DNA of 64,000 nt from Clostridia bacterium (GTDB lineage Bacteria > Bacillota > Clostridia > Christensenellales > CAG-138), in assembly GCA_017429985.1 (NCBI GenBank), contig JAFRNW010000019.1:1-64000 (forward strand). The letters run 5' to 3'. Position 1 is the first letter of the stretch, and each line of letters begins with the position of its first letter. The notes beneath the pieces were generated by a model. It ran no database searches. It saw only the letters and a list, made by a program, of their open reading frames with translations, and had not been told where the DNA came from. Shown piece by piece: positions 43,405 to 61,409 of the stretch. Made by a program: the position numbers and the translations under genes.

Positions 43405-43449
43405 TGGCGTGCCTGGGAGGATTCGAACCTCTGACCTACAGAGTCGGAG
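43405..43449 (-). pseudogene. 3' half of the original tRNA-Arg(CCG), left junction of the island
   Basis: On the minus strand it reads from the anticodon loop CTCCGAC through the 3' anticodon stem TCTGT, T arm (AGAGGTTCGAATCCTCC), acceptor strand CAGGCAC and GCCA. There is no 5' half next to it. Its TCTGT pairs exactly with ACAGA of the orphan 5' half at 61453-61491, 18 kb away; joining the two at CTCCGAC gives a complete 77-nt tRNA. This is therefore the chromosomal remnant produced by integration in the anticodon loop. Confidence 0.85.
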
Positions 43450-43614
43450 AAGTACAGATAATGATTAGAAAAAAGTTAGTAGCATGGGGAAAAACGCTTA
43501 TTTTTGGCGGTTTTTGACAGCTTGGCTATGTCAAAATATATGATAAAGAGTATCGTTATAAAAGGCCTTTTTTAATAGCTCTGTAGTAAAAATGTAGTAT
43601 GTTTTCAGCTATAG
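43450..43614. repeat. Left arm repeat, copy 1
   Basis: Together with the adjoining tRNA half (43405-43614) it is a direct repeat of 51141-51351, nearly the same length and mostly identical by eye, ending in the identical TGTAGTATGTTTTCAGCTA. The double TGTAGTA motif 11 bp apart looks like arm-type binding sites of a tyrosine integrase. Confidence 0.8.
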
Positions 43615-43860
43615 ATATCCTTATAAGGAGTATCAGCAATGCCTATTGTATTTAGCCGCATATTCTTTTTGTCTAATATAGGTTTTCAGATATTCTAAAA
43701 CGGCCTGACATCATATACGATATAATTGCTGGAACTGTGTTTTAATGAGCATAAGGCTTTTCTGTGCATCGTTAGAATTATTTCTGTCAAACTAATGAGT
43801 TTTCGAGTATAATAATACAATTAAAATGATTTTTTTTCTGATTATTTGAGGTTAAAACTA
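43615..43860. other. AT-rich leader region of the dlt-like operon
   Basis: No gene. Very AT-rich, with several TATAAT-like and TTG-rich stretches (for example ATACGATATAATTGC near 43715 and AATAATACAATTAAAATG near 43810). The operon promoter must be here, but I cannot choose one with confidence. Confidence 0.3.
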
Positions 43861-45372
43861 GTGCGCACAAAAAACGTATTGGAGTATTTGGAAAACAGCG
43901 GCGCTCGATTCACAAACAAAACGGCGGTTATAGATGATTCTGGAGCCTGCACTTATCTGGAACTGCGGACTGTCTGTCAAAAGATCGGGACGGCTCTGGC
44001 ATGCAAGATTACTGTTGGTACTCCGGTGGCGGTACTAATGGAAAAAAGCATATCCGTTCTCCAGGCATTCTTTGGAATCGTTTATGCCGGTGGCTATTAT
44101 GTTCTGTTAAATCCCGACCTTCCAGAGAAGCGTCTGGGGCAAATCCAGAAAGTCCTGCAGGCTCCCATTGTCATCACGGACGCCGGGCATCACAACCTGG
44201 CCCGCACCCTGTTTCCCGAGAACGCAATATGTCGAATCGAAGAATTGGCCGACGGGCCGATCCAGGCAGAAGTCTTGCAAAGGATTCGCAACCGCATGAT
44301 CGATACCGACCCGTTGTATGCCAACTTCACCTCCGGCTCAACCGGTATTCCAAAAGGCGTGATGGTCAATCACCGCTCTGTAATCGATTTTATTGATGTC
44401 TTTACGGAACTATTCCGTCTGAATAATACGGATGTTTTCGGCAATCAAGCGCCTTTTGATTTTGATGTTTCCGTCAAAGACATCTATTCGTCCGTCTATG
44501 TGGGCGGAACGCTGGTCATCCTGCCAAAGCGTCTGTTCTCGAATCCGAAAGAGCTGCTGGATTGGCTCAATGACCGCAAGATTACAACCTTGATCTGGGC
44601 CGTCTCCGCCCTTTGCCTTGTCAGCACCTTTCACGGTCTTGACTACCGAACACCTGAAACGGTACGAAATGTGCTGTTCAGCGGCGAGATGATACCGGAG
44701 AAGCATCTGCGGACATGGCGTGATCATCTGCCCGACGCCCAGTTCGTCAATCTCTACGGCCCGACGGAGATCACCTGCAACTGCACCTATTACATTCTGG
44801 ACAAAAACCTCAATTATACCGAAGGCGTTCCCATTGGACGTCCGTTCCCCAACGAACACGTATTTCTGCTGGATTCAAATGATCAGGAGGTCAAGGCGAA
44901 AGATGTCGTTGGAGAAATATGCGTTCGTGGCACGGCACTTGCACTGGGCTACTGTCGCGCCCCAGAACAAACAGCAGCAGCCTTTACACAGAATCCTCTG
45001 AATATCTGTTATCCGGAGTTGATCTATCGCACTGGCGATTTGGGCAAATACAATGATCTCGGCGAACTCATGTTCTGCGGACGCAAGGATTTTCAAATCA
45101 AGTATATGGGTCACCGGATCGAGTTGGAGGAAATCGAGCGTGTCATCGGCGCGATGCCAGACGTGGAAAGATGCTGCTGTATATTTGATCCGCTGAAAAG
45201 CAAGTTGTATGGCTTTTATGTCGGACTTGCAGAGCCTAACGAGCTACGCAGACGGCTCCAGCAGGAACTTCCTCTCTATATGGTGCCCGGGGCTTTGCGC
45301 CAGCTGTCGGAGTTGCCTCTCAACAAAAACGGCAAGATCGACCGAAAGAGATTACTGGAACGAAAGGAATAG
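43861..45372 (+). CDS. DltA-like amino acid adenylation enzyme
   Basis: 503 aa from the GTG at 43861, preceded by GAGG. Adenylation motifs are all visible: A3 FTSGSTGIPKGVMVNHRS (about residues 160-177), A5 NLYGPTEITCNCTY, A7 YRTGDLGKYNDLGELMFCGR, A8 IKYMGHRIELEEIE and A10 LPLNKNGKIDRKRLLE. Length and order match D-alanine:carrier protein ligase DltA and the AMP ligases of exosortase-type clusters. It should activate an amino acid and load it on the small carrier protein encoded two genes later. Substrate is uncertain because a decarboxylase gene follows instead of a standard dlt neighbour. Confidence 0.9.
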   Translation: MRTKNVLEYLENSGARFTNKTAVIDDSGACTYLELRTVCQKIGTALACKITVGTPVAVLMEKSISVLQAFFGIVYAGGYYVLLNPDLPEKRLGQIQKVLQAPIVITDAGHHNLARTLFPENAICRIEELADGPIQAEVLQRIRNRMIDTDPLYANFTSGSTGIPKGVMVNHRSVIDFIDVFTELFRLNNTDVFGNQAPFDFDVSVKDIYSSVYVGGTLVILPKRLFSNPKELLDWLNDRKITTLIWAVSALCLVSTFHGLDYRTPETVRNVLFSGEMIPEKHLRTWRDHLPDAQFVNLYGPTEITCNCTYYILDKNLNYTEGVPIGRPFPNEHVFLLDSNDQEVKAKDVVGEICVRGTALALGYCRAPEQTAAAFTQNPLNICYPELIYRTGDLGKYNDLGELMFCGRKDFQIKYMGHRIELEEIERVIGAMPDVERCCCIFDPLKSKLYGFYVGLAEPNELRRRLQQELPLYMVPGALRQLSELPLNKNGKIDRKRLLERKE

Positions 45373-45375
45373 TTT

Positions 45376-46572
45376 ATGAACGACTCCCAACTGAAGGCGG
45401 TTCTGGAGTTGGAGAAAACTCCTCTCTATATTTTTGACCTGTCAGAGTTGTCAGACAGGATTTGTTTCCTGAGGAACCATCTGCCGGCATCCGTCCTGAT
45501 CTGCTATGCGGTGAAAGCAAATCCGTTCCTTGCGCAGGAGGTCAGCGGATTGGTGGAACGGCTGGAAATCTGCTCTCCGGGAGAGTATCGCATCTGTCAG
45601 AATCTCGGCCTTTCGCAGGAACAATTCGTAGTATCCGGTGTTTACAAAACACCTTCTCTGATGCACGACATGATAGCTCGGGACGATGCGACGGGGCTCT
45701 TCACGGTGGAGTCTTTGCAACAGTTTTTCCTTCTTTACGAGGAGGCTAAAAGCGGACACAAACGGATCCCTGTCCTGCTGCGCCTTACCAGCGGTAATCA
45801 ATTCGGTTTGGATGAGCCCGATGCGGAAAAGCTGATTGCAGACTACCAGCATGATGTGCACCTGGATATCCGGGGAATCCAATACTTCTCCGGAACCCAG
45901 AAGACTTCGCTGAAGCGACTTGAGCGGGAACTGGAATACCTGGACAGCTTTCTAGAACGGTTGCAGACCTCCTATGGTTACCGTGCTCAGGAGCTGGAAT
46001 TTGGGCCCGGATTCCCGGTGTCCTATTTTCAAGGGGAAGAACTGGCGGAGCCAGAGTTTTTTAAGAGCTTTTCCGCGCTGTTGACCGGGATGCGTTTCGG
46101 AGGACTGATTACGCTGGAGATTGGGCGAAGCATCGCGGCCAGCTGCGGCTACTACTTGACAAGAGTGGTCGATACAAAAATCAACAAGGGCCGAAACTAC
46201 GCCATTGTGGATGGGGGCATCCACCAGCTGGTCTACTTTGGTCAGTTTATGGCCATGAAGCGCCCTCACGTGCGTATTCTGTCCCCCTCCATCCGCGGAA
46301 GCGAGGAGGAATGGAATATATTTGGTTCTCTCTGTACCATCAACGACGTGCTAGTCAAAAGCCTTCCCCTGCCGGGGCTTCATGTCGGGGATACGCTCGT
46401 GTTTGAGAATACAGGCGCATACTGTATGACCGAGGGAATATCCCTGTTTCTCAGCCGAGACTTACCCGCCGTGGTGCTATTTCAGTGCAATGGCACGCCT
46501 CTCCTTGTGCGGGGCCATATCTCCACAGCTTTCTTAAATGCACCAGATTATGAAAGGAGTAATAAAAAATGA
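45376..46572 (+). CDS. Type III PLP-dependent decarboxylase (LysA/ODC-like)
   Basis: 398 aa. The PLP lysine is in ICYAVKANP (about residue 45). Other fold-III decarboxylase marks are ELEFGPGFPVSY (phosphate/Gly loop), LEIGRSIAASCGYYLTRVV, the catalytic-Cys region FGSLCTINDVLVK and GAYCMTEG. The pattern is closest to diaminopimelate/ornithine-type decarboxylases and to the exosortase-associated decarboxylase family. It lies 3 bases after the adenylation gene and its stop overlaps the carrier gene start, so it is an integral step of the pathway: it may make the amine or amino acid that is loaded, or act on the carrier-bound substrate. Confidence 0.88.
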   Translation: MNDSQLKAVLELEKTPLYIFDLSELSDRICFLRNHLPASVLICYAVKANPFLAQEVSGLVERLEICSPGEYRICQNLGLSQEQFVVSGVYKTPSLMHDMIARDDATGLFTVESLQQFFLLYEEAKSGHKRIPVLLRLTSGNQFGLDEPDAEKLIADYQHDVHLDIRGIQYFSGTQKTSLKRLERELEYLDSFLERLQTSYGYRAQELEFGPGFPVSYFQGEELAEPEFFKSFSALLTGMRFGGLITLEIGRSIAASCGYYLTRVVDTKINKGRNYAIVDGGIHQLVYFGQFMAMKRPHVRILSPSIRGSEEEWNIFGSLCTINDVLVKSLPLPGLHVGDTLVFENTGAYCMTEGISLFLSRDLPAVVLFQCNGTPLLVRGHISTAFLNAPDYERSNKK

Positions 46573-46796
46573 AACAGTTAATTGAGATTCTGGAGGATGT
46601 CAATCCGGGCGTGGATTACAATACTTGCACCGATTTGGTTGACGGCGGTTACCTTAATTCCCTCTCCATCCTCGCTATAGTGGCGGAACTGGAAGAAGCA
46701 TTCGACATTGTGATCTCAACAGTAGAGGTAACTCCGAAAAACTTCAACTCCGCCCAGAGTCTTTGGGAAATGGTGCTGCGGCTGAAAGAAGAATAA
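46569..46796 (+). CDS. DltC-like acyl/peptidyl carrier protein
   Basis: 75 aa, the size of DltC. The phosphopantetheine serine is in GGYLNSLSILAIV; the canonical DSL is NSL here, with the serine kept. The start overlaps the decarboxylase stop (ATGA), and the MBOAT gene starts 4 bases after its stop. It should carry the activated amino acid as a thioester to the membrane acyltransferase. Confidence 0.87.
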   Translation: MKQLIEILEDVNPGVDYNTCTDLVDGGYLNSLSILAIVAELEEAFDIVISTVEVTPKNFNSAQSLWEMVLRLKEE

Positions 46797-46800
46797 TACA

Positions 46801-48402
46801 ATGCTCCCGTTGTCTTCCTATTTCTCACTGCTTTACCTAGCAATACTGTTGCCGGGAACCGTGCTGGCTTATACTGTCCTTCCGCAAAAATATCGTCGTG
46901 CAGTACTCTTGCTGAGCAGTTACGCCGTGTTCTGGCTCGTCAGCGGGAAACTGCTGTGCTATCTTCTATTTTCCACTATCTCGGTTCATCATATCGGCTT
47001 GTGGTTGGAGAATACCCAACTCGAGGCAAACAGGCTGCTTGAGACTGCGCCGAAAGAAACGCGAAAGGACATTCGGGCACGGACTCAGCAGAGACGGAAA
47101 AAAATAGTAGCATTTGGGATTGCTGTGCAGTTCGGTATTTTGCTGGCGTTGAAATACGGGGCGTTTTTCATCTCCAACTTCAACGAACTTGCTGACTTAA
47201 TGAAGGTTACAGTGAAACTACCTGTCCCTTCCGTCATTTTGCCGATTGGCATCTCCTTTTATACCATGCAAGCAGCATCCTACATGCTGGATGTGTATCG
47301 AGAGAATATCCCTGCAGACCGAAATCTGATGCGTCTCGCTCTTTACATGAGTTTTTTCCCCCAGCTCATGGAAGGGCCGATCTGCCGATATTCAGAAACC
47401 GCGCAGCAGCTCTGGGACGCTCCGCCTATGCGTTGGAAAAACTTAATGTTAGGCCTCCAACGCATTCTGTGGGGCATCATGAAAAAAATGGTGGTTGCCG
47501 ACCGCTTGAATCTGTTAATCACTGAAGCGTTTGACAACTATGTCCACTACGACGGATTCATGATTGCTGCAGCTGTCGTGTGCTACACAGTTCAACTCTA
47601 TATGGACTTCTCCGGCACCATGGATCTTGTGCTGGGCAGCGGACAGATATTCGGCATCAAACTGCCGGAAAACTTCCAGCGCCCCTTCTTTTCACGCACG
47701 ATTCAGGAGTTTTGGCGTCGCTGGCATATTACGCTTGGTGCATGGTTCCGAGACTACGTTTTTTATCCTATATCACTCAGCGCTCCAATAAAAAAGCTGC
47801 CTCTCCTGCTACAAAAACGGCTGGGAAGAACCTACGGGTTCATTTTTTCCAGTATACCCGCCCTGTTCTGTGTATGGTTATGTAACGGTCTGTGGCACGG
47901 GGCAGGCTGGAACTTTATTTTTTTCGGGATGTACCACTTTGCTTTGATCCTTGTTGAAAATATAATGGAACCCCCTGCTGTCTGGCTGGCAAAAAGGCTC
48001 CATATCAACCGGGACGGCATTCTGTACCGATGTATGCAGATCGTCCGCACCGCCGTACTATTTTGCATCGGCGAACTGTTTTTCAGGGCATCTTCCCTGA
48101 AAGCGGGGTTTGCCATGTTTAAAAAGATATTTACTGATTTTACACTGGCAAGAGTTAAAGATAACACATTCTTTTCCCATGGTGCAGATAAGCATGATTT
48201 TTTAATCGTTGTCGTGACACTGGCGTTGATTCTGGCGGTCGGGTGCATCCAGGAACGAGGAGTTTCCGTGCGACAGTGGATAGAAAAGAGAAATCTTGCG
48301 GTCCGTCTTTCTCTGTGGTATCTTCTGATTCTTTTTATCGTGATATTCGGCGCATACGGTACCGGATATATTCCGGTTGACCCAATCTATGCAGGCTTCT
48401 AG
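46801..48402 (+). CDS. DltB-like MBOAT O-acyltransferase
   Basis: 533 aa with about 11 hydrophobic helices. MBOAT signatures: FFPQLMEGPICRYSE, EFWRRWHITLGAWFRDYVFY and the catalytic histidine in CNGLWHGAGWNFIFFGMYHF. Relatives include DltB, AlgI and PatA, which pass an acyl group across or at the membrane onto a polymer. Here the donor should be the carrier-protein thioester. Longer than DltB (about 400 aa), closer to the AlgI type. Confidence 0.92.
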   Translation: MLPLSSYFSLLYLAILLPGTVLAYTVLPQKYRRAVLLLSSYAVFWLVSGKLLCYLLFSTISVHHIGLWLENTQLEANRLLETAPKETRKDIRARTQQRRKKIVAFGIAVQFGILLALKYGAFFISNFNELADLMKVTVKLPVPSVILPIGISFYTMQAASYMLDVYRENIPADRNLMRLALYMSFFPQLMEGPICRYSETAQQLWDAPPMRWKNLMLGLQRILWGIMKKMVVADRLNLLITEAFDNYVHYDGFMIAAAVVCYTVQLYMDFSGTMDLVLGSGQIFGIKLPENFQRPFFSRTIQEFWRRWHITLGAWFRDYVFYPISLSAPIKKLPLLLQKRLGRTYGFIFSSIPALFCVWLCNGLWHGAGWNFIFFGMYHFALILVENIMEPPAVWLAKRLHINRDGILYRCMQIVRTAVLFCIGELFFRASSLKAGFAMFKKIFTDFTLARVKDNTFFSHGADKHDFLIVVVTLALILAVGCIQERGVSVRQWIEKRNLAVRLSLWYLLILFIVIFGAYGTGYIPVDPIYAGF

Positions 48403-48415
48403 GAGGAACGGCTTA

Positions 48416-49369
48416 ATGATTTATCTAAAACGAACGGGCTGTGTCATGTTATTCCTGCTGGGGCTGCTGGTAATACTGCTTGCTGCCTCTGCCATTTTCA
48501 AGCCAAAGAACAACATCCCATCGGCAGGGATGGAGGAAACACTTGCAAACGGTATTCTGGGTGAGCCGGAAAACACGATTGATGTTTTGATCATTGGTGA
48601 CAGCGAATCCCGTTGCGCCATATGTCCCATGCAAATTTGGAAAGAAACCGGATTCACCACATATGTGTGTGCGACAGCAGCCCAAAAGCTTTCTTACAGT
48701 TATACCATGCTCGACCGCGCATTTCAGCGACAAAAGCCAAAAATCGTAATTCTTGAGACGCTGGCGATTTTCCGGGAGATGTCATTGGAAGACGCGGTTA
48801 AAGAAATATTATATCATAGGCTTCCTGTTCTCCGCTATCATGATCGATGGAAATGTTTGCATGCCAATGATTTTGGTGGTGCGGTTCTGCCAGTCTGGAC
48901 CAATGACAGCAAAGGATATTGGAATACAAAAAAGGTTGATCCCGGTAGTAACGAGCCGTACATGGGTGCCATGGATAACAAATCAAGCGTCTCACTGCTG
49001 AACAGACGTTATGTCCGGGCCATTAAAACACTTTGTGAAAAAAACGGATCCCGACTTCTTCTGTTGAGTACGCCCAGCACCATCAATTGGAATTATGCTC
49101 TGCACAATGGCATTCAGGCAGTAGCTGAGGAACTGGGTATTGAATACATCGACATGAACCTCATGAACGACCGTATCAAAATTGACTGGAGCAGGGATAC
49201 TTTCGACAAGGGCGACCATTTGAACCACAGCGGCGCAGTCAAACTTTCCTTGGTACTGTCAGAGTATCTGCAAGAGCAAGGCATTTTCAAGGATCACCGT
49301 GGCGATCAAGCTTATGCAAAGTGGGAGGATATTCTGAAAAACCGCGGGACCGAACCTGAAGAAGAATAA
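48416..49369 (+). CDS. SGNH/DltD-like membrane-anchored protein
   Basis: 317 aa from the ATG at 48416, preceded by AGGAGG. One N-terminal hydrophobic helix (MLFLLGLLVILLAASAIF) is followed by an extracytoplasmic SGNH-type domain: VLIIGDSESRCAICPMQIW (GDSx nucleophile) and FDKGDHLNHSGAVKLS (Asp/His pair). By analogy with DltD and AlgX/AlgJ it would complete the transfer of the modifying group on the outer face. It is the last gene of the operon. Confidence 0.88.
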   Translation: MIYLKRTGCVMLFLLGLLVILLAASAIFKPKNNIPSAGMEETLANGILGEPENTIDVLIIGDSESRCAICPMQIWKETGFTTYVCATAAQKLSYSYTMLDRAFQRQKPKIVILETLAIFREMSLEDAVKEILYHRLPVLRYHDRWKCLHANDFGGAVLPVWTNDSKGYWNTKKVDPGSNEPYMGAMDNKSSVSLLNRRYVRAIKTLCEKNGSRLLLLSTPSTINWNYALHNGIQAVAEELGIEYIDMNLMNDRIKIDWSRDTFDKGDHLNHSGAVKLSLVLSEYLQEQGIFKDHRGDQAYAKWEDILKNRGTEPEEE

Positions 49370-49468: not shown

Positions 49469-50806
49469 ATGAGCCTGACTATGATTGCGAGACGAATCAT
49501 CACCGTTGTCTTGTTACTCATTGTGATGCTTTTTCTGGAACTGAATCAGCATTTTACATGGGGTATGTTTCTGACCGTTCATTTGACCACTACGATTTTC
49601 ATATTGTTCGAAGCGAAACTTCTGCCGGGAATTCCGCAAGGCAGCAGCGTGGACGGGCTATATCCTCCTTACCGCGCTCATTCTTGTCATCACGTTCCCT
49701 TCCATAATCAGGTCGATGCGATTAACAGAAAAACCTGCAGAGAAACAGGCGCTGTAGCGATGAAGGACGGCAAAGTCAGCGGTGTCATGAGGGCGGACGG
49801 AGCGACGCGGACATCCCGTACTCTGCTCCACCCATGAGAGATCTTTGCTGTAAGGAACCGCAGGACGTGACCGCCTAGGATGGGACCCTAAAAGCAAATC
49901 ATTTTACTGCCATGTCCATGCAGATCCGGAAGCTCCCAATCATAGACTCCCTCACGAATATCATAGACAATCACGATTACAGCTGGCTAGATTTCAGTGA
50001 CAACTATATCGCTACGGCATCTAAGGACTCGCTTTACGAAAATGTTAGGAAACCCGCGGGAGAACAGAAGAATCTCCCGTACTGGTTTTCGTTCACGGCT
50101 ACTCCCTGCTGTCCGGCCAGCCCTGGTACGCGGATTACAGCGGCGAATGCCTAGCGCGGGACAGCGTCATCGTCGTCAATATAGGATGCCGTCTGTGCGC
50201 ATTCAGATTTCTTGCTCTGGACAAACTTGCCGCGGAATCTGAACACTGCACGACCGGAAACCACGATCTTCTGGATTAGATCAAGGCGCTGGAATGGGTC
50301 CGGGACAATATCGCTTCCTTCGGTGGCGATCCTGATAACATCACCGTGGCTTGAGAATCCTCTGGCGCCTCTTCCGTGAGCGTCCTCTGTACTTCGTCTC
50401 TTGCGGCTGTTCCGCTGGGTCATTCTGGAAAGCTCCATCGTGGCTAGCCGGAAGCCGCCTCATTCCTTCTGCTCCATGGAGGAAGCACTGCCTTCTTGAA
50501 AAGAAGTTCTTCCACGATACCATGCAAAAAACGTATCGGATCTGCGCAGACTGCCCGAAGATTCAATCGCGGGATCCATGGATACGGAACACTACATCAC
50601 CGTGGACGGCTACGTCCTGCCTGAAACGCCCTGTCAATCCTATCAAAAGGGCATTCATAACGAGGAAGCTATCCTACACGGGTTTCTGTCGCTTGTCATT
50701 TGCGATGGGAAATGCTGATATTGCCGTCAAAAATAGGGCAACAGCGGTGGCTCCGCCGCATTACGCGGATGGTGTGGTGCAGATTCTGGAGCGTTACTTC
50801 CTGTAA
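49469..50806 (+). pseudogene. Decayed carboxylesterase/lipase (type B) with membrane N terminus
   Basis: Pieces of one protein are spread over several frames. Order: a membrane N terminus (IARRIITVVLLLIVMLFLE, then YILLTALILVITFPSIIRSM in another frame), KDGKVSGVMRADGATRT, SLYENVRKPAGEQKNLPYW, LEWVRDNIASFGGDPDNITV and VDGYVLPETP near the end. The nucleophile elbow reads TGA-ESSGASS, that is GESSG with the first Gly turned into a stop. Multiple stops and shifts make it clearly dead. It lies at the right end of element A. Confidence 0.75.
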
Positions 50807-51140
50807 AAGCATTTGCCTCTAGTATTTATCCAGAGGCAAATGTTTTTCATATAGTATTGGCGCGTGCAAATCAGGTCAACGAAGTGTTCCAATCAGTTTT
50901 ATCCTGCTTTTTTCTCCCTGTTGTTTAATTTCTTTATGCCGGTGAGCAATATAGTTCAAAAGAAAATGTAGTAAAATGTAGTAAATCTGGATTTTAGGAC
51001 CGAAAAACGGCTTTCTTGAAAATGCATAAACAGAAGGATATGCATTTTGAACAATAGACTGTAATTCTTTTTTGTAGAAAAAATCTGCTACAAAAATGCA
51101 AAACAAATGCCCCGAAAACATAGTGTTTTCGGGGCTTTTT
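50807..51140. repeat. Right arm region of element A with terminator
   Basis: No gene. It contains the doubled ATGTAGTAAAATGTAGTAAATC (arm motif, about 50966-50987), an inverted repeat AAAATGCATA / TATGCATTTT (about 51018-51047) and a hairpin CCCCGAAAAC / GTTTTCGGGG with CTTTTTT (51110-51140) abutting the tRNA half. The same sequence of features recurs at 61152-61332. Confidence 0.75.
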
Positions 51141-51185
51141 TGGCGTGCCTGGGAGGATTCGAACCTCTGACCTCAAGAGTCGGAG
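51141..51185 (-). pseudogene. Second tRNA-Arg 3' half at the junction of elements A and B
   Basis: It reads CTCCGAC-TCTTG-AGGTC and then the same T arm and acceptor as the other copies. Its anticodon-stem strand TCTTG does not pair with the local 5' half (ACAGA); it would need CAAGA. It therefore came with an element from another host or tRNA variant and is not the original chromosomal sequence. Confidence 0.8.
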
Positions 51186-54021: not shown

Positions 54022-55227
54022 TCACTCCTGCGGTGTCCAGAACACGCTGTTCACATAGTACTCGATCCCGGTGCGCTGGCGGCCGACGAGAAAGTGCGCA
54101 TTGATGCGCTTCTGGATCACATTGCAGTTCTCGCGCGTGGTGTTGATAAGGAGCACCAGATACTGTCCTTTTCCGTAGCGGCACATTGCGTCACCGCGGC
54201 GGATCGAACGGCGAATTGCATCCCCCATCCTGCTGACCAGCTGATTCAGGACATCTCCCTCGCGCATGGGATTGCCTTTACTGTCCACAATCGTGCACAG
54301 CATGATGTATACCGACTGTCCTCCGCGCTCAAGCATGCGTTCGACCATGCGATAGATTCCAAGGAACACCGGGTAGTTGCAAAGGTATCCGCCTTGCGAT
54401 CTGTCGTGCGCCCCGGTAAGTTCCGACTGGATCTGATCCAAGACAGCGTGCCGGTACTGCATCTTTTCCCCGAGCCGGTCGAATTGCTCCATGAGCCTCT
54501 TCGACGGCCTCAGACCCTGCTCGTTGAAATAAAACTGGACCGTGCTGTCATATAGCTTCCGTGCATCTTCCGCGCGTCCAAGTGAAACGAGTGCTTCCAT
54601 GGTGATCGTTTCCCAATCCGCGAGAGGATCGATCCGGGCGGCATAAAGGCCAAGGTCCTCCATCTGGAAATAATCCTGACTGACTCGGAGGAGCTCAGAC
54701 GCCCGCTCGACAGCGGTGCAGAACAGCTCCTTGTATCTTCTGGCTTCCCGCGCAGCCCAAACGGCGCTCGTATGAAATGTCAGGAACTCTCCGCTGTAGG
54801 CATAGCATGCTTGTAGGTAGAGGGACAGCCGTTCATCCAGATCCTTTGTATTCTCCGCCTCGTGGAACAATTCCTCAAAGGTGAAGGCATCCACGACGGT
54901 GGGAACGGAATCCGACCAGCGAAACACGCCCTTTGTCTGTTCGATGCAGTTTTCCGCCGGAATCCCGGCTTTCAGAAGTTTCTGCTTGGTGTTGTAGATG
55001 ACGCTCTGGAGCGCATGATGGATGTTGTTCATGTCCCTGTCGCTGAACAGCAGCTCTTCCAACTTGTCCCGGGACACGCCCTTTTCCTTTTCATGGATGA
55101 GGATCTGCAGAAGGCTGGTGTTCTGGGAATCGATCGCCTTGGAACCGCCGGCGACAAGTTTCCCGTTCCAACGGAGAGAAAAGCCTCCGAGCATTCTTAC
55201 ATACAGAACGTTTTCCTGCTCTTTCAC
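54022..55227 (-). CDS. SARP/BTAD-type regulator with degenerate GGDEF-like C terminus
   Basis: 401 aa from a GTG start with GAAGGAG. The N terminus VLYVRMLGGFSLRWNGKLV and NIHHALQSVIYNTKQKLLKA form the winged-helix DNA-binding domain of SARP proteins. Helical BTAD repeats follow (about residues 115-265). The C-terminal 130 residues show GGDEF-like spacing (DAIRRSIRRGDAMCRYGKGQ then YLVLLI) but lack the GGDEF catalytic motif, so it should bind rather than make a nucleotide, if anything. It may control the adjacent secreted protein gene. Confidence 0.82.
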   Translation of the reverse strand: MKEQENVLYVRMLGGFSLRWNGKLVAGGSKAIDSQNTSLLQILIHEKEKGVSRDKLEELLFSDRDMNNIHHALQSVIYNTKQKLLKAGIPAENCIEQTKGVFRWSDSVPTVVDAFTFEELFHEAENTKDLDERLSLYLQACYAYSGEFLTFHTSAVWAAREARRYKELFCTAVERASELLRVSQDYFQMEDLGLYAARIDPLADWETITMEALVSLGRAEDARKLYDSTVQFYFNEQGLRPSKRLMEQFDRLGEKMQYRHAVLDQIQSELTGAHDRSQGGYLCNYPVFLGIYRMVERMLERGGQSVYIMLCTIVDSKGNPMREGDVLNQLVSRMGDAIRRSIRRGDAMCRYGKGQYLVLLINTTRENCNVIQKRINAHFLVGRQRTGIEYYVNSVFWTPQE

Positions 55228-55839: not shown

Positions 55840-58800
55840 TCAGAACGCATTCTCAATGGTGAAGAAGTCGTATTCCGGGTGCGCCTCGTCGTAGGAATCC
55901 CTGTCAAGGACCGGGGAATAGGTCGCTACCGCGATCGTTCCCGCTTCGGCGTTCAGGGTAATCATGCGGAAGAAGCCGAGGCCGTTTTCTACGTCTGAAG
56001 CGTAGTTGTACATGATCGCGTTCGCGCTGCGTCCGTCTTCATAGGCCTTGCTCCAGCGCGCTGCGCCTTCCGCATTGCCAGAGAGGATCAGGGAAACGTT
56101 GCTGTTGACAGCGACGATCTCGGATTCGACCAGTTTGCCGAACGCTGTCAGCGTTCCATGATCGAGCGTGTCTGCCGGATTCTTTTCGATGAAGTCATTT
56201 ACAAGGAGAATCACGGTATATTCCGAATACGCGGCAAGCATGTCGTTTACGTACTGGATCCATGCCTGCTGAGCACTGCGCTCTTCATCTGTGGCATTCC
56301 CGTCGAGCACCTTCTGGCTTCCGATGCCTACCATAAGGACCTGATTGTCGGCAAACGGATGGACCCAGACGCTGCCGTTACTGTTTCTTTTTGCTGCTTC
56401 AAAGATACCGTTGCTGAGATAATCCGTATAATCTGCGTCGGCACCGACTTCGTTGCATCCCGCGATGTTCAGATAGGGAAGTTCGCCGTTCTTTCTGTTC
56501 ATCCCGTCCAGCGCATCACGGATCAGCTTCCAGGCGGCTTCGTCCTTGCCGTCGGCAACCGCGTTCCCCGTCCCGATTAGAGCGGATGCTCCAAGGAATC
56601 TGTTCTCTTTCAGATACCGGATCATTGCCTGGTAGGCTTCCGCCTGTTTTCCACCCGCTGTCAGATCAGTATCCGAGGTGAGGATGAAAGACATCGAGCC
56701 GATCATTCCGAGAGGAACCTCTTCGTCCGCAATGGTCGTGGTGGTTGATTTTTTGGTCGGAGTATCTTTTTTCGTTTCCGCCGTGAATGAACCATGGATC
56801 GTTACATCCTGCGCCGGCATCGTGAAGGTCTCACTGTCCCATCCGCTGAATGTATACCCCTTCGCGACAGCGTTTTCCGCGATAACGACCTTGCTGCCGA
56901 ATTTTCTGGCCGTTGCTTCCGGAAGCTCGGATGCACCGGAAGGAACCTTGCCGGAGTACTCATAGGAAACCGTGTACTGATTGCGGTCGTAATAGAGGTT
57001 CAGGACCAGGGAATCGTCCAGTGCGACCGTTCCGTCGGATATGGACGCTGCTTCATTGTAGCGGAAACCTTCGTAGCTGTTGGCGTCCACGCTGATCGCT
57101 TTTCCGGTCAGAGCGCTTTCTTCTTTCTTCTCGGCGAGCGTGTATCCGTCTGTGTCCGCATTTTCGAGGTAATGGTTGACCGTGTACAGGGAGGCCGGAA
57201 CATGGCTGTTGGTGATCACTGCGCGGTTTGCGCCATCGCTTGCAACGGCCTTTTCATATCCGTCCGCAACTTCCGTTTCATCCGCGCTGTACCGGATCAG
57301 CTGATCGGCAGCATAGGCGTCCAGACCCGAGAAGGTGTAAGACCATCCGTTTGCTTCGGAAAGGACCGCTGTCCTGCCTTTGACCGGTTTTCCGTTTGCA
57401 AGAAGCTGCACGGAGACGCTGCCCGGACGGATCCCGTCCTTGTCGTCCGCGTCGTTCCAGACTTTCCGGACGGAAAAGCTTGTCGTGTATTTCGCGTAGA
57501 CGTTGTATTCCTTCGCAGTATTCGCATTCGATGTAACTGCGGGGAGTTTATACTCGAATCCCTTGGAAAGGAGTTCCCCTTTCTCGTTGTACCAGCCCTT
57601 GAACGAGATATCCGCCTTGGATTCTTCTTTCGTCAGGGAAGGCTCATAGCTGTACACGGAGATTCCGGACTTGAACTGCTCCTCGCTGTGTGCCAGCGTG
57701 CCTTTCACATACCAGTTGACCGTAACGGAGGGTTGCCATTTCGCAAGGAAGGTAATGGTCTTCGTGCTCCCGGGCGCCTGATCCGCGCCGTCATAGGTGA
57801 AAGATCGTCCGGCAGTATAGATCGAACCGTCATCGGTGTTGTACCAGTGAACAAACCTGTAGTGACTGACCGGTGTCTTTTTCGACGGATCCGAGAACGT
57901 ATGGGTGAAGCTGGAGGCGGAATCAAGATTGCTCCAGGAACCGGAACCGGTAGAAACGTTGTCGATATAACGGTAGTTCAAATACCAGTTCTGCGTCACT
58001 TCGTATACCGGGGAGATGCTGATGCGGAGATCGCCGTTTTCATCTTCGGTGAACAGTCTTGTCGAACCATCGGTGAAGTAGACCGTTGCTTCGTTGACAC
58101 CGCCGGAGGACTTGTTGCAACGGAACGCGATCTTGGAGATCTCGCTGCTGCCGCCGGCCAGCGTGAATGCGTTCAGGAACTTGTAATTCGCTCCGATCCC
58201 GGAAGCTGTCCGGTTCTTGCCGCCCACATAGGAGAAGAATCCGCTGATCAGTTTGGTCTGGTTGGATGCCGTGAACGATACATACTTTGTCGCAGGAACT
58301 GCTTTTCCGCCGACAGCGCTTACGGTTGCGTCATAGATGCCGGTAATCGCAACGACGATGGACCCTTTGCTGAGCGTGTCGTATGCGGCGGTATAGGTCT
58401 TGTCTCCGCTGACGGACACGACGTTCGGCGTGAATTTCGAAAAGACATAGTAGTTTTTGTCGCTTTCAGCAGATTCCCGGACGGGCGTCTCTCCGCTGTA
58501 TGCGGGAATGGAACCCTTCGCGGCGTATTCTTCCTTCAGCACTGATCCGTCCCAGTTTGTCCAGGTGATCAGGTACATTTCCGAAAAGACCGCGGTGTAG
58601 ACCTGATCGCTGTCCGCTTCCTTGACCGCGGGAGTCCAGCCTTTGAACTGATATCTGCACTTCGCAGAAGCCGCTTTCTCGGGGACTGCGCCAGTATACG
58701 AGGGAATAATTCCCTCTTCCACTTCTTTTGTCATAAGGACTGTTCCGTCCGCGTTTTTCCAGGTAATGGTATAGAACACGGGAACAAGCTTGGTCTCTTC

Positions 58801-59415
58801 CTCTTCCGCGTCTTTGAACGTTTCTTCCTCTTCGGTTTCGAGAGCTTCGGGCAGAGCTTCTGCGATTTCTTCTTTCACCTCAGAAAGCTCTTCTGCATTT
58901 TTATCGGTATCCGCTCCGGAAGCTTCCGCGGCGGACTCCTCGGCTTTCTCCTCTTTCAGGGCCTCGGAGAGATCGGCAATCTCCTTGTCGCCAGCCTCTT
59001 CGACGGCTTCAGAAGCAGCCTGCTCCTCCTCCTTCTCTTCCCGGATTGAAGCCTCATTGACCTTAACGGAATCCGCTTCTTTGATTTCGGCGTTTTCCGC
59101 TTTCTTTTCTTCGGCAGCTGCCGCGATTTCGCTGGAAGCCGGCTTGCTTTCGGCCCTGTCTGCGACGTCTTCCGCCTTTGCTTCCTCAGCTGTGCTGGTT
59201 TTCTCTTCTGATTCCTGCTTGGCAGGACGGATCTCTTCTTTCATTTCCGAAGACTCAGAAGCTTTTTCCGTCTCCTTGACCGCCGACTTATCTGCGATCG
59301 GTTCAGACGGCATGTCCGACACATCGGATCCGTCGGCAAGAGCCGTCGGAACGAGCGCCGCAAGCATCATAACAGCGAGTGTCAGGGAAAGGATTCTCTT
59401 CAAAAACGACTTCAT
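55840..59415 (-). CDS. Large secreted repeat protein with degenerate phosphoesterase-like C terminus
   Basis: 1191 aa. Signal peptide 1-27 (ILSLTLAVMMLAALVPTALA). Residues about 30-205 are Glu/Ala/Lys/Ser-rich and probably helical. Then two Flg_new/InlB-type repeats (YTITWKNADGTVLMTKEVEE and YLITWTNWDGSVLKEEYAAK), a middle region, a Cna_B-like domain (FSVRKVWNDADDKDGIRPGS), a MucBP-like part (VNHYLENADTDGYTL) and another InlB-like repeat. The last 270 residues resemble a calcineurin-like phosphoesterase whose metal motifs are changed (IAGCNEVG for GNHE, LSGNAEG for SGHxHG). No LPXTG or other clear anchor is present. Confidence 0.85.
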   Translation of the reverse strand: MKSFLKRILSLTLAVMMLAALVPTALADGSDVSDMPSEPIADKSAVKETEKASESSEMKEEIRPAKQESEEKTSTAEEAKAEDVADRAESKPASSEIAAAAEEKKAENAEIKEADSVKVNEASIREEKEEEQAASEAVEEAGDKEIADLSEALKEEKAEESAAEASGADTDKNAEELSEVKEEIAEALPEALETEEEETFKDAEEEETKLVPVFYTITWKNADGTVLMTKEVEEGIIPSYTGAVPEKAASAKCRYQFKGWTPAVKEADSDQVYTAVFSEMYLITWTNWDGSVLKEEYAAKGSIPAYSGETPVRESAESDKNYYVFSKFTPNVVSVSGDKTYTAAYDTLSKGSIVVAITGIYDATVSAVGGKAVPATKYVSFTASNQTKLISGFFSYVGGKNRTASGIGANYKFLNAFTLAGGSSEISKIAFRCNKSSGGVNEATVYFTDGSTRLFTEDENGDLRISISPVYEVTQNWYLNYRYIDNVSTGSGSWSNLDSASSFTHTFSDPSKKTPVSHYRFVHWYNTDDGSIYTAGRSFTYDGADQAPGSTKTITFLAKWQPSVTVNWYVKGTLAHSEEQFKSGISVYSYEPSLTKEESKADISFKGWYNEKGELLSKGFEYKLPAVTSNANTAKEYNVYAKYTTSFSVRKVWNDADDKDGIRPGSVSVQLLANGKPVKGRTAVLSEANGWSYTFSGLDAYAADQLIRYSADETEVADGYEKAVASDGANRAVITNSHVPASLYTVNHYLENADTDGYTLAEKKEESALTGKAISVDANSYEGFRYNEAASISDGTVALDDSLVLNLYYDRNQYTVSYEYSGKVPSGASELPEATARKFGSKVVIAENAVAKGYTFSGWDSETFTMPAQDVTIHGSFTAETKKDTPTKKSTTTTIADEEVPLGMIGSMSFILTSDTDLTAGGKQAEAYQAMIRYLKENRFLGASALIGTGNAVADGKDEAAWKLIRDALDGMNRKNGELPYLNIAGCNEVGADADYTDYLSNGIFEAAKRNSNGSVWVHPFADNQVLMVGIGSQKVLDGNATDEERSAQQAWIQYVNDMLAAYSEYTVILLVNDFIEKNPADTLDHGTLTAFGKLVESEIVAVNSNVSLILSGNAEGAARWSKAYEDGRSANAIMYNYASDVENGLGFFRMITLNAEAGTIAVATYSPVLDRDSYDEAHPEYDFFTIENAF

Positions 59416-61332: not shown

Positions 61333-61409
61333 TGGCGTGCCTGGGAGGATTCGAACCTCTGCCCTTTGGAGTCGGAGTCCAACGCTCTTTCCAGCTGAGC
61401 TACAGGCAC
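61333..61409 (-). tRNA. tRNA-Arg (anticodon CCG), complete
   Basis: 77 nt including encoded CCA. Acceptor GTGCCTG / CAGGCAC, D arm GCTC-AGCTGGAAA-GAGC, anticodon arm TTGGA-CTCCGAC-TCCAA (CCG, reads CGG), T arm AGAGG-TTCGAAT-CCTCC with one A-C mismatch at its base. Its D and anticodon arms differ from those of the split chromosomal gene, so it was brought by an element and now probably serves as the functional gene. The promoter at 61589-61617 reads through the orphan 5' half into it. Confidence 0.93.

Follow-up and report, generated by a model that had tools for sequence, protein, structure and literature searches.

A conserved five-gene operon with a fold-type III decarboxylase in a Clostridia bacterium: a probable envelope aminoacylation system related to Dlt

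The operon and its conservation

We consider here a compact operon in a 64,000-nucleotide stretch of DNA from a Clostridia bacterium (positions 1–64,000, forward strand, of contig JAFRNW010000019.1, assembly GCA_017429985.1; hereafter the window), which a preliminary description had presented as a five-gene dlt-like operon with a pyridoxal phosphate (PLP) decarboxylase built in. Five intact, codirectional and tightly packed genes are indeed present on the + strand: a stand-alone adenylation (A) enzyme of the amino-acid type, that is, a ligase for a carrier protein (43861–45372), a BtrK-like PLP decarboxylase of fold type III (45376–46572), a carrier protein (46569–46796), a membrane-bound O-acyltransferase (MBOAT, PF03062) with an extra C-terminal region (46801–48402), and a membrane-anchored acyltransferase of SGNH fold in the role of DltD or PatB (48416–49369). 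We think it probable that together they constitute an envelope aminoacylation system with built-in decarboxylation, a distinct cousin of Dlt.

Alternative starts exist for the A enzyme (TTG, 43846) and the SGNH protein (48377). We prefer GTG 43861 and ATG 48416 because Shine-Dalgarno-like GAGG and AGGAGG, respectively, lie upstream of them, and the former also because the A proteins of relatives start at the equivalent point (consensus MxNVLEYLE). With these starts the successive gaps between genes are 3, –4, 4 and 13 bases, the decarboxylase and carrier genes overlapping by 4, compared to medians of –4, 12, 1 and 11 bases in relatives. The top-scoring sigma-70-like promoter match in the region (43784–43813, + strand; 10/12, a match to consensus only) sits 48 bases 5' of the operon.

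Relatives were sought by the decarboxylase in 84,980 species genomes; at least 571 were found, and the best 80 loci were inspected. The linkage described here is thus conditional on the decarboxylase by which the loci were picked, and weaker relatives lie outside the inspected set. All five genes are present at 77 of the 80 loci, the other three being interrupted by contig ends, and the gene order of the window (A–decarboxylase–carrier–MBOAT–SGNH) is kept in 73. Within the window's GTDB order, a decarboxylase at 40–50% identity occurs in 7 of 395 other genomes, every one of which carries the full set, arranged either as in the window or with the MBOAT–SGNH pair ahead of the other three; no close decarboxylase was found in 102 other genomes of the window's GTDB family. 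Because the linkage is kept in 77/80 and 7/7 loci, the set is not a chance assembly, and this neighbourhood search supports the earlier suggestion that a ligase–decarboxylase–carrier trio has been joined to a dlt-like MBOAT/SGNH export-transfer pair. Hosts include Ruminococcus bromii, Agathobaculum, Dorea phocaeensis, Mediterraneibacter and Acetobacterium, as well as Collinsella, Enorma and Erysipelotrichaceae; judged by these sequence matches, the operon is spread over hundreds of genomes, for the most part of gut bacteria. Inside groups it is sparse (4 of 398 genomes in a phylum sample), as expected for genes gained and lost often. The five-gene system is real and conserved. The preliminary description had allowed that homologous operons might already have an assigned product; so far, no published description or assigned product was found in the open literature searched, a scope outside which subscription journals and preprints fall, and in that literature the system is undescribed.

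Features of the five proteins

The A enzyme matches the AMP-binding and AA-adenyl-dom families (TIGR01733, 342 bits, above cut-off) and reaches 266.7 bits with the DltA model TIGR01734, against a cut-off of 559.85. Its AlphaFold2 model (pLDDT, the predicted local distance difference test score, 87) has the fold of a nonribosomal peptide synthetase A domain, with a best Z of 50.1 and a Z of 48.0 to the DltA structure 3e7w; VinN is not among the listed structural matches, which proves nothing. By alignment the pocket consists of D235, V236, K239, I278, W279, L299, F300, S301, L322, C330, N331 and K517, in what we take to be the GrsA numbering of code positions. These residues are mostly invariant across 86–88 relatives, I278 being variable. 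K239, the proposed carboxylate-binding residue (codon 44476–44478, + strand; K211 when counted from TTG 43846), is Lys in each of the 86 relatives that have a residue aligned there. The comparison with DltA that the preliminary description had called for gives a difference at 239, 279 and 331: none of eight true DltA enzymes of the same class has K239, W279 or N331. A VinN-like Arg near code position 331 was also sought in the pocket and is absent, an invariant Cys-Asn (C330-N331) standing there instead. Overall the pocket resembles a serine-type code (that of locus L133) more than one for a large basic substrate. That a single, nearly invariant pocket is kept across phyla suggests one substrate, and a Lys within a small polar pocket suggests that this substrate carries a free carboxylate.

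The decarboxylase matches the Orn/DAP/Arg decarboxylase family, and its top PDB match is BtrK (2j66; 94.6 bits as a single sequence and 163.5 bits as a profile, 26% identity), the L-glutamyl-[BtrI acyl carrier protein] decarboxylase of the butirosin pathway. The PLP-site and catalytic residues Lys47, Glu248, Cys320, Asp324 and Tyr349 are present in 88 of 88 relatives, so that the possibility, raised earlier, of an inactive enzyme has so far found no support in the sequence. The residue following the catalytic Cys is Thr in 69 and Ser in 19 of the 88; Cys-Thr is common to BtrK and to decarboxylases of carrier-linked loci in Sinorhizobium (exosortase-type), Streptomyces and Paracoccus, whereas LysA-type proteins have Cys-Glu at this site. 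With the lysA model TIGR01048 the enzyme scores 149.5 bits against a cut-off of 297.9, and a separate LysA-like gene in the same genome (contig C27), which has Cys-Glu, scores 286.1 bits, slightly below that cut-off. The motif, the score and the separate gene together rule out the LysA reading, and the free diaminopimelate decarboxylase feared in the preliminary description has so far not materialised. The best NCBIfam match is TIGR03099, at 166.5 bits against a cut-off of 478.45. In a tree, the operon decarboxylases form one clade (support 100), which lies closer to carrier-type enzymes than to LysA with weak deep support. Carrier-bound decarboxylation is biochemically established for 3-methyl-Asp (VinN/VinO) and for Asp (AfcQ/AfcP), in the latter case with direct activation of beta-Ala excluded (PMC11284099, PMC12186527). 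By analogy, the enzyme most likely acts on a carrier-bound amino acid. The carboxylate lost in PLP decarboxylation must sit on the carbon that bears the amine, and such a substrate would therefore have to be loaded via another carboxyl, as is known to happen with VinN/VinO and AfcQ/AfcP (PMC11284099, PMC12186527).

The carrier shows a weak match to DltC and acyl carrier proteins (27.9 bits; the cut-off of the DltC model NF003464 is 68 bits), and its predicted phosphopantetheine site, Ser31, is kept in 85 of 85 relatives, in nearly all of which the carrier gene lies inside the operon. The MBOAT scores 57.2 bits with PF03062 and 154.5 bits with the DltB model TIGR04091 (cut-off 375), and the match of its profile to DltB structures is confined to the core, profile positions 134–385. 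Its C-terminus, DPIYAGF, contains a candidate acyl-shuttle motif (PIYAGF, 48382–48399, + strand) comparable to the FXYXXF of DltX and PatA. His366 and Tyr530 are present in 85 of 85 relatives, whose full-length MBOATs end in Y-x-x-F or Y-x-x-Y (last residue F in 83, Y in 2). PatA acylates the Tyr of a C-terminal motif of this kind and PatB then uses the acyl-Tyr (PMC12148441). The five packed genes leave no room for a DltX microgene between them, the search for DltX having been limited to the operon within this genome. On its sequence, then, the MBOAT is PatA-like, with a fused tyrosine shuttle, rather than the counterpart of DltB that it had been taken for.

The sequence of the fifth protein is less telling, with a Pfam match of 16.2 bits, below cut-off, and no match to a DltD model. 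Because its sequence profile gave no match in the PDB, we turned to structure prediction. The AlphaFold2 model (pLDDT 93) is of SGNH fold, with Z up to 12.7 to SGNH/GDSL hydrolase structures and 11.3 to PatB, and the Ser of GDS and the His of DHxN are each kept in 83 of 85 relatives. The earlier equation of four of the genes with DltA, DltC, DltB and DltD thus stands for their roles and fails for their families: the DltA, DltB and DltC models were missed and DltD gave no match.

Proposed mechanism, product and acceptor

By homology, we envisage the following sequence of reactions. The A enzyme would activate an acidic amino acid at its side-chain carboxyl, with D235 holding the substrate amine and K239 the alpha-carboxylate, and load it onto the carrier. 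There the BtrK-like enzyme would strip the alpha-carboxylate, so that an omega-aminoacyl thioester remains: beta-alanyl if Asp was loaded, gamma-aminobutyryl (GABA) if Glu was. The MBOAT would draw the acyl group off the carrier, carry it across the membrane and auto-acylate the Tyr of its own C-terminal motif, from which the SGNH protein might take it to esterify an extracellular polymer other than classical teichoic acid. Our tentative first choice for the product is beta-alanine, perhaps somewhat short of an even chance, with GABA a considerably less likely second. GABA thioesters and esters tend to cyclise, and for this reason, together with the small serine-like pocket, beta-alanine is preferred. 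The preliminary description had the operon decorating a surface polymer with an amino acid other than D-alanine or with a decarboxylated product; the group is probably indeed not D-alanine.

Several observations weigh against this scheme. The system is known here from sequences and predicted folds. The Arg that VinN and AfcQ use for the alpha-carboxylate is absent from the pocket, K239 being a proposed substitute only, and K239 is found also in two related operons that have no decarboxylase (L139/L156 and L152/L161), so its use as the sole marker of decarboxylase operons was dropped. A BtrK loop of about 15 residues is missing from the decarboxylase. The first Phe of FXYXXF is replaced by Pro in 76 of 85 relatives and kept in 9. 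Finally, no acceptor-polymer genes are linked to the operon.

As to the acceptor, we looked at eight operon genomes, the window's own among them. None has a TagB/F-type protein (PF04464) or a DltA above the TIGR01734 cut-off. A sulfatase/LtaS-family protein is present in five of the eight, and none was found in the window's genome at E 1e-15, this genome being 98% complete. Because it has neither TagB/F nor an LtaS-family protein, a classical teichoic acid is, within that completeness, an unlikely acceptor here. In relatives, several recurrent neighbour clusters are antisense shadow frames and no conserved neighbour is clear except a two-component system: of 64 informative loci, about 26 have a histidine kinase with an OmpR-type regulator beside the operon, in 20 of them codirectional, which suggests envelope-response control; the window's copy has no such adjoining pair. 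The same genome has a second acylation locus on contig C13 (L011, 7123–16000), beside polysaccharide genes, which comprises two SGNH-like proteins, an MBOAT whose C-terminus reads FMYQQF, and an AMP-binding ligase that lacks the amino-acid Asp.

Among the alternatives, the one that survives best keeps the mechanism and changes the product to something other than an omega-amino acid derived from Asp or Glu, for example lysyl from meso-diaminopimelate or 3-aminoisobutyryl from 3-methyl-Asp. Diaminopimelate is the commonest substrate of the fold-III family, the lysA model does give its 149.5 bits, and VinO handles 3-methyl-Asp; against this, the pocket is nearer a serine-type code than that of a large basic substrate, and Cys-Thr replaces Cys-Glu. 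We regard such a product as unlikely. Quite improbable is a secondary-metabolite or lipid pathway, in which the aminoacyl group would be put on an exported small molecule or glycolipid instead of a wall polymer. The known ligase/decarboxylase/carrier trios do come from antibiotic and exosortase loci, and the lack of LtaS-family and TagB/F proteins would fit, but in relatives no further biosynthetic genes accompany the operon consistently, and an MBOAT/SGNH pair with a Tyr shuttle is known from acylation of extracellular polymers. Slightly less probable still is a Dlt variant in which D-alanine or some other simple amino acid is esterified and the decarboxylase is an unrelated passenger or a regulator: four of the five roles match Dlt and related operons free of the decarboxylase exist, yet the enzyme is retained, its catalytic residues intact, in all relatives inspected (loci found, though, by the decarboxylase), the A code departs from DltA at three positions, and the Dlt models stay below their cut-offs. 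A canonical Dlt operon is ruled out by the DltA, DltB and DltC cut-offs and the pocket.

Genomic setting, variant operons and known systems

Flanking the operon are two tRNA-Arg 3'-end fragments that mark island boundaries (43405–43449, repeat family D2, and 51143–51185, repeat families D2 and D3), upstream of an intact tRNA-Arg(ccg) on the – strand (61333–61409), the presumed attachment site. A 147-base repeat follows each fragment (at 43469 and 51206; copies 92% identical), and the G+C content drops from about 56% to 44–51% at the operon. The layout looks like the pattern of two tandem islands at the tRNA-Arg(ccg) attachment site; no integrase was recognised in the island region. A phage origin was considered and dropped, viral contigs giving no close relative and a single distant match (25%), and the plasmid search gave, among the matches listed, relatives at 26–31% only. 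Just 3' of the operon (49469–50810) are what appear by eye to be decayed, frame-broken carboxylesterase-like remnants. The neighbouring island encodes a 1191-aa protein with a Cna_B domain (55840–59415, – strand), which a BTAD-type regulator (54022–55227) adjoins.

Related loci keep the chassis of A enzyme, carrier, motif-bearing MBOAT and SGNH protein with other tailoring and different A codes. In L156 (4694–9903) a GNAT acetyltransferase takes the decarboxylase's place between A enzyme and carrier, and the A code is Glu-like (DSKD); L157, L158 and L161 have no tailoring enzyme. These variants suggest that the family is modular and that the decarboxylase operons are one of its types. Other loci were noted in passing. 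In the A–carrier–MBOAT–SGNH operons of L157 (4449–8766) and L158 (1–3839), Ser replaces Asp235, which suggests that the substrate is a hydroxy acid and not an amino acid. L160 (5611–10987) and L163 (4928–10317) have tandem A enzymes, then a carrier, a short DltB-like MBOAT that lacks the C-terminal motif, and a protein that matches SGNH weakly. A surface protein that combines Ig-like with transglutaminase-like domains lies inside or beside a variant operon in L050 (4882–5907), and similar ones, judged by eye, are present in L055 (10214–11254) and L161 (5436–6650). It is possible, if rather less likely than not to hold in all its parts, that these loci represent a class of carrier-fed MBOAT–SGNH envelope acylation in gut Clostridia and Coriobacteriia, with swappable on-carrier tailoring (decarboxylase, GNAT or none) and fused acyl-Tyr export, the present member placing beta-alanine on a non-teichoic polymer in bacteria without Dlt.

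If the proposed aminoacylation scheme is true, many common gut bacteria (Ruminococcus bromii, Dorea, Collinsella, Agathobaculum) carry an unrecognised cationic surface group, made by carrier-bound decarboxylation coupled to an MBOAT acyl-tyrosine shuttle. On chemical grounds a beta-alanine ester would be less labile than that of D-alanine, giving a longer-lasting charge, which would bear on resistance to host antimicrobial peptides. The scheme would also contradict the current generalisation of Dlt as the sole carrier-protein-fed MBOAT system, other MBOAT–SGNH pathways being without a carrier and evidently fed by acyl-CoA (PMC12148441). The five-protein set is small enough for reconstitution.

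Lastly, we place the operon among known systems. With Dlt (DltA, DltC, DltB, DltX, DltD) it shares the overall scheme of a ligase that loads a stand-alone carrier, an MBOAT that draws the acyl group from it, and an SGNH protein that transfers it outside. It differs in the extra, presumably carrier-acting decarboxylase, in an A pocket unlike that of DltA together with the wide margin by which the DltA, DltB and DltC models are missed, in the shuttle motif fused to the MBOAT where DltB relies on DltX, of which the operon has none, and in a genome without LtaS-family and TagB/F proteins. Peptidoglycan O-acetylation by PatA/PatB has in common an MBOAT with C-terminal Y-x-x-F and a His and an SGNH partner of PatB-like fold, whereas the donor here is presumably a carrier protein from the same operon instead of acyl-CoA (PMC12148441). 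BtrK is likewise a fold-III PLP decarboxylase with the Cys-Thr motif and is the nearest solved structure; the present enzyme has a shorter substrate loop and is joined to a transmembrane acyl-transfer pair. The VinN–VinL–VinO, FlvN and AfcQ–AfcK–AfcP systems, in which Asp or 3-methyl-Asp is loaded and then decarboxylated, share the combination of A enzyme, carrier and PLP decarboxylase; the pocket here has K239 and lacks the Arg of VinN and AfcQ, and the product would go to the MBOAT/SGNH pair and not into a polyketide or peptide. The exosortase A-associated trio (TIGR03098/TIGR03099) has the same order and supplies the best NCBIfam match of the decarboxylase, which nevertheless falls far below the TIGR03099 cut-off; its ligase has an Arg motif (FRSTY), and the Sinorhizobium locus examined has no annotated MBOAT/SGNH, the pair to which the trio is joined in the present operon.

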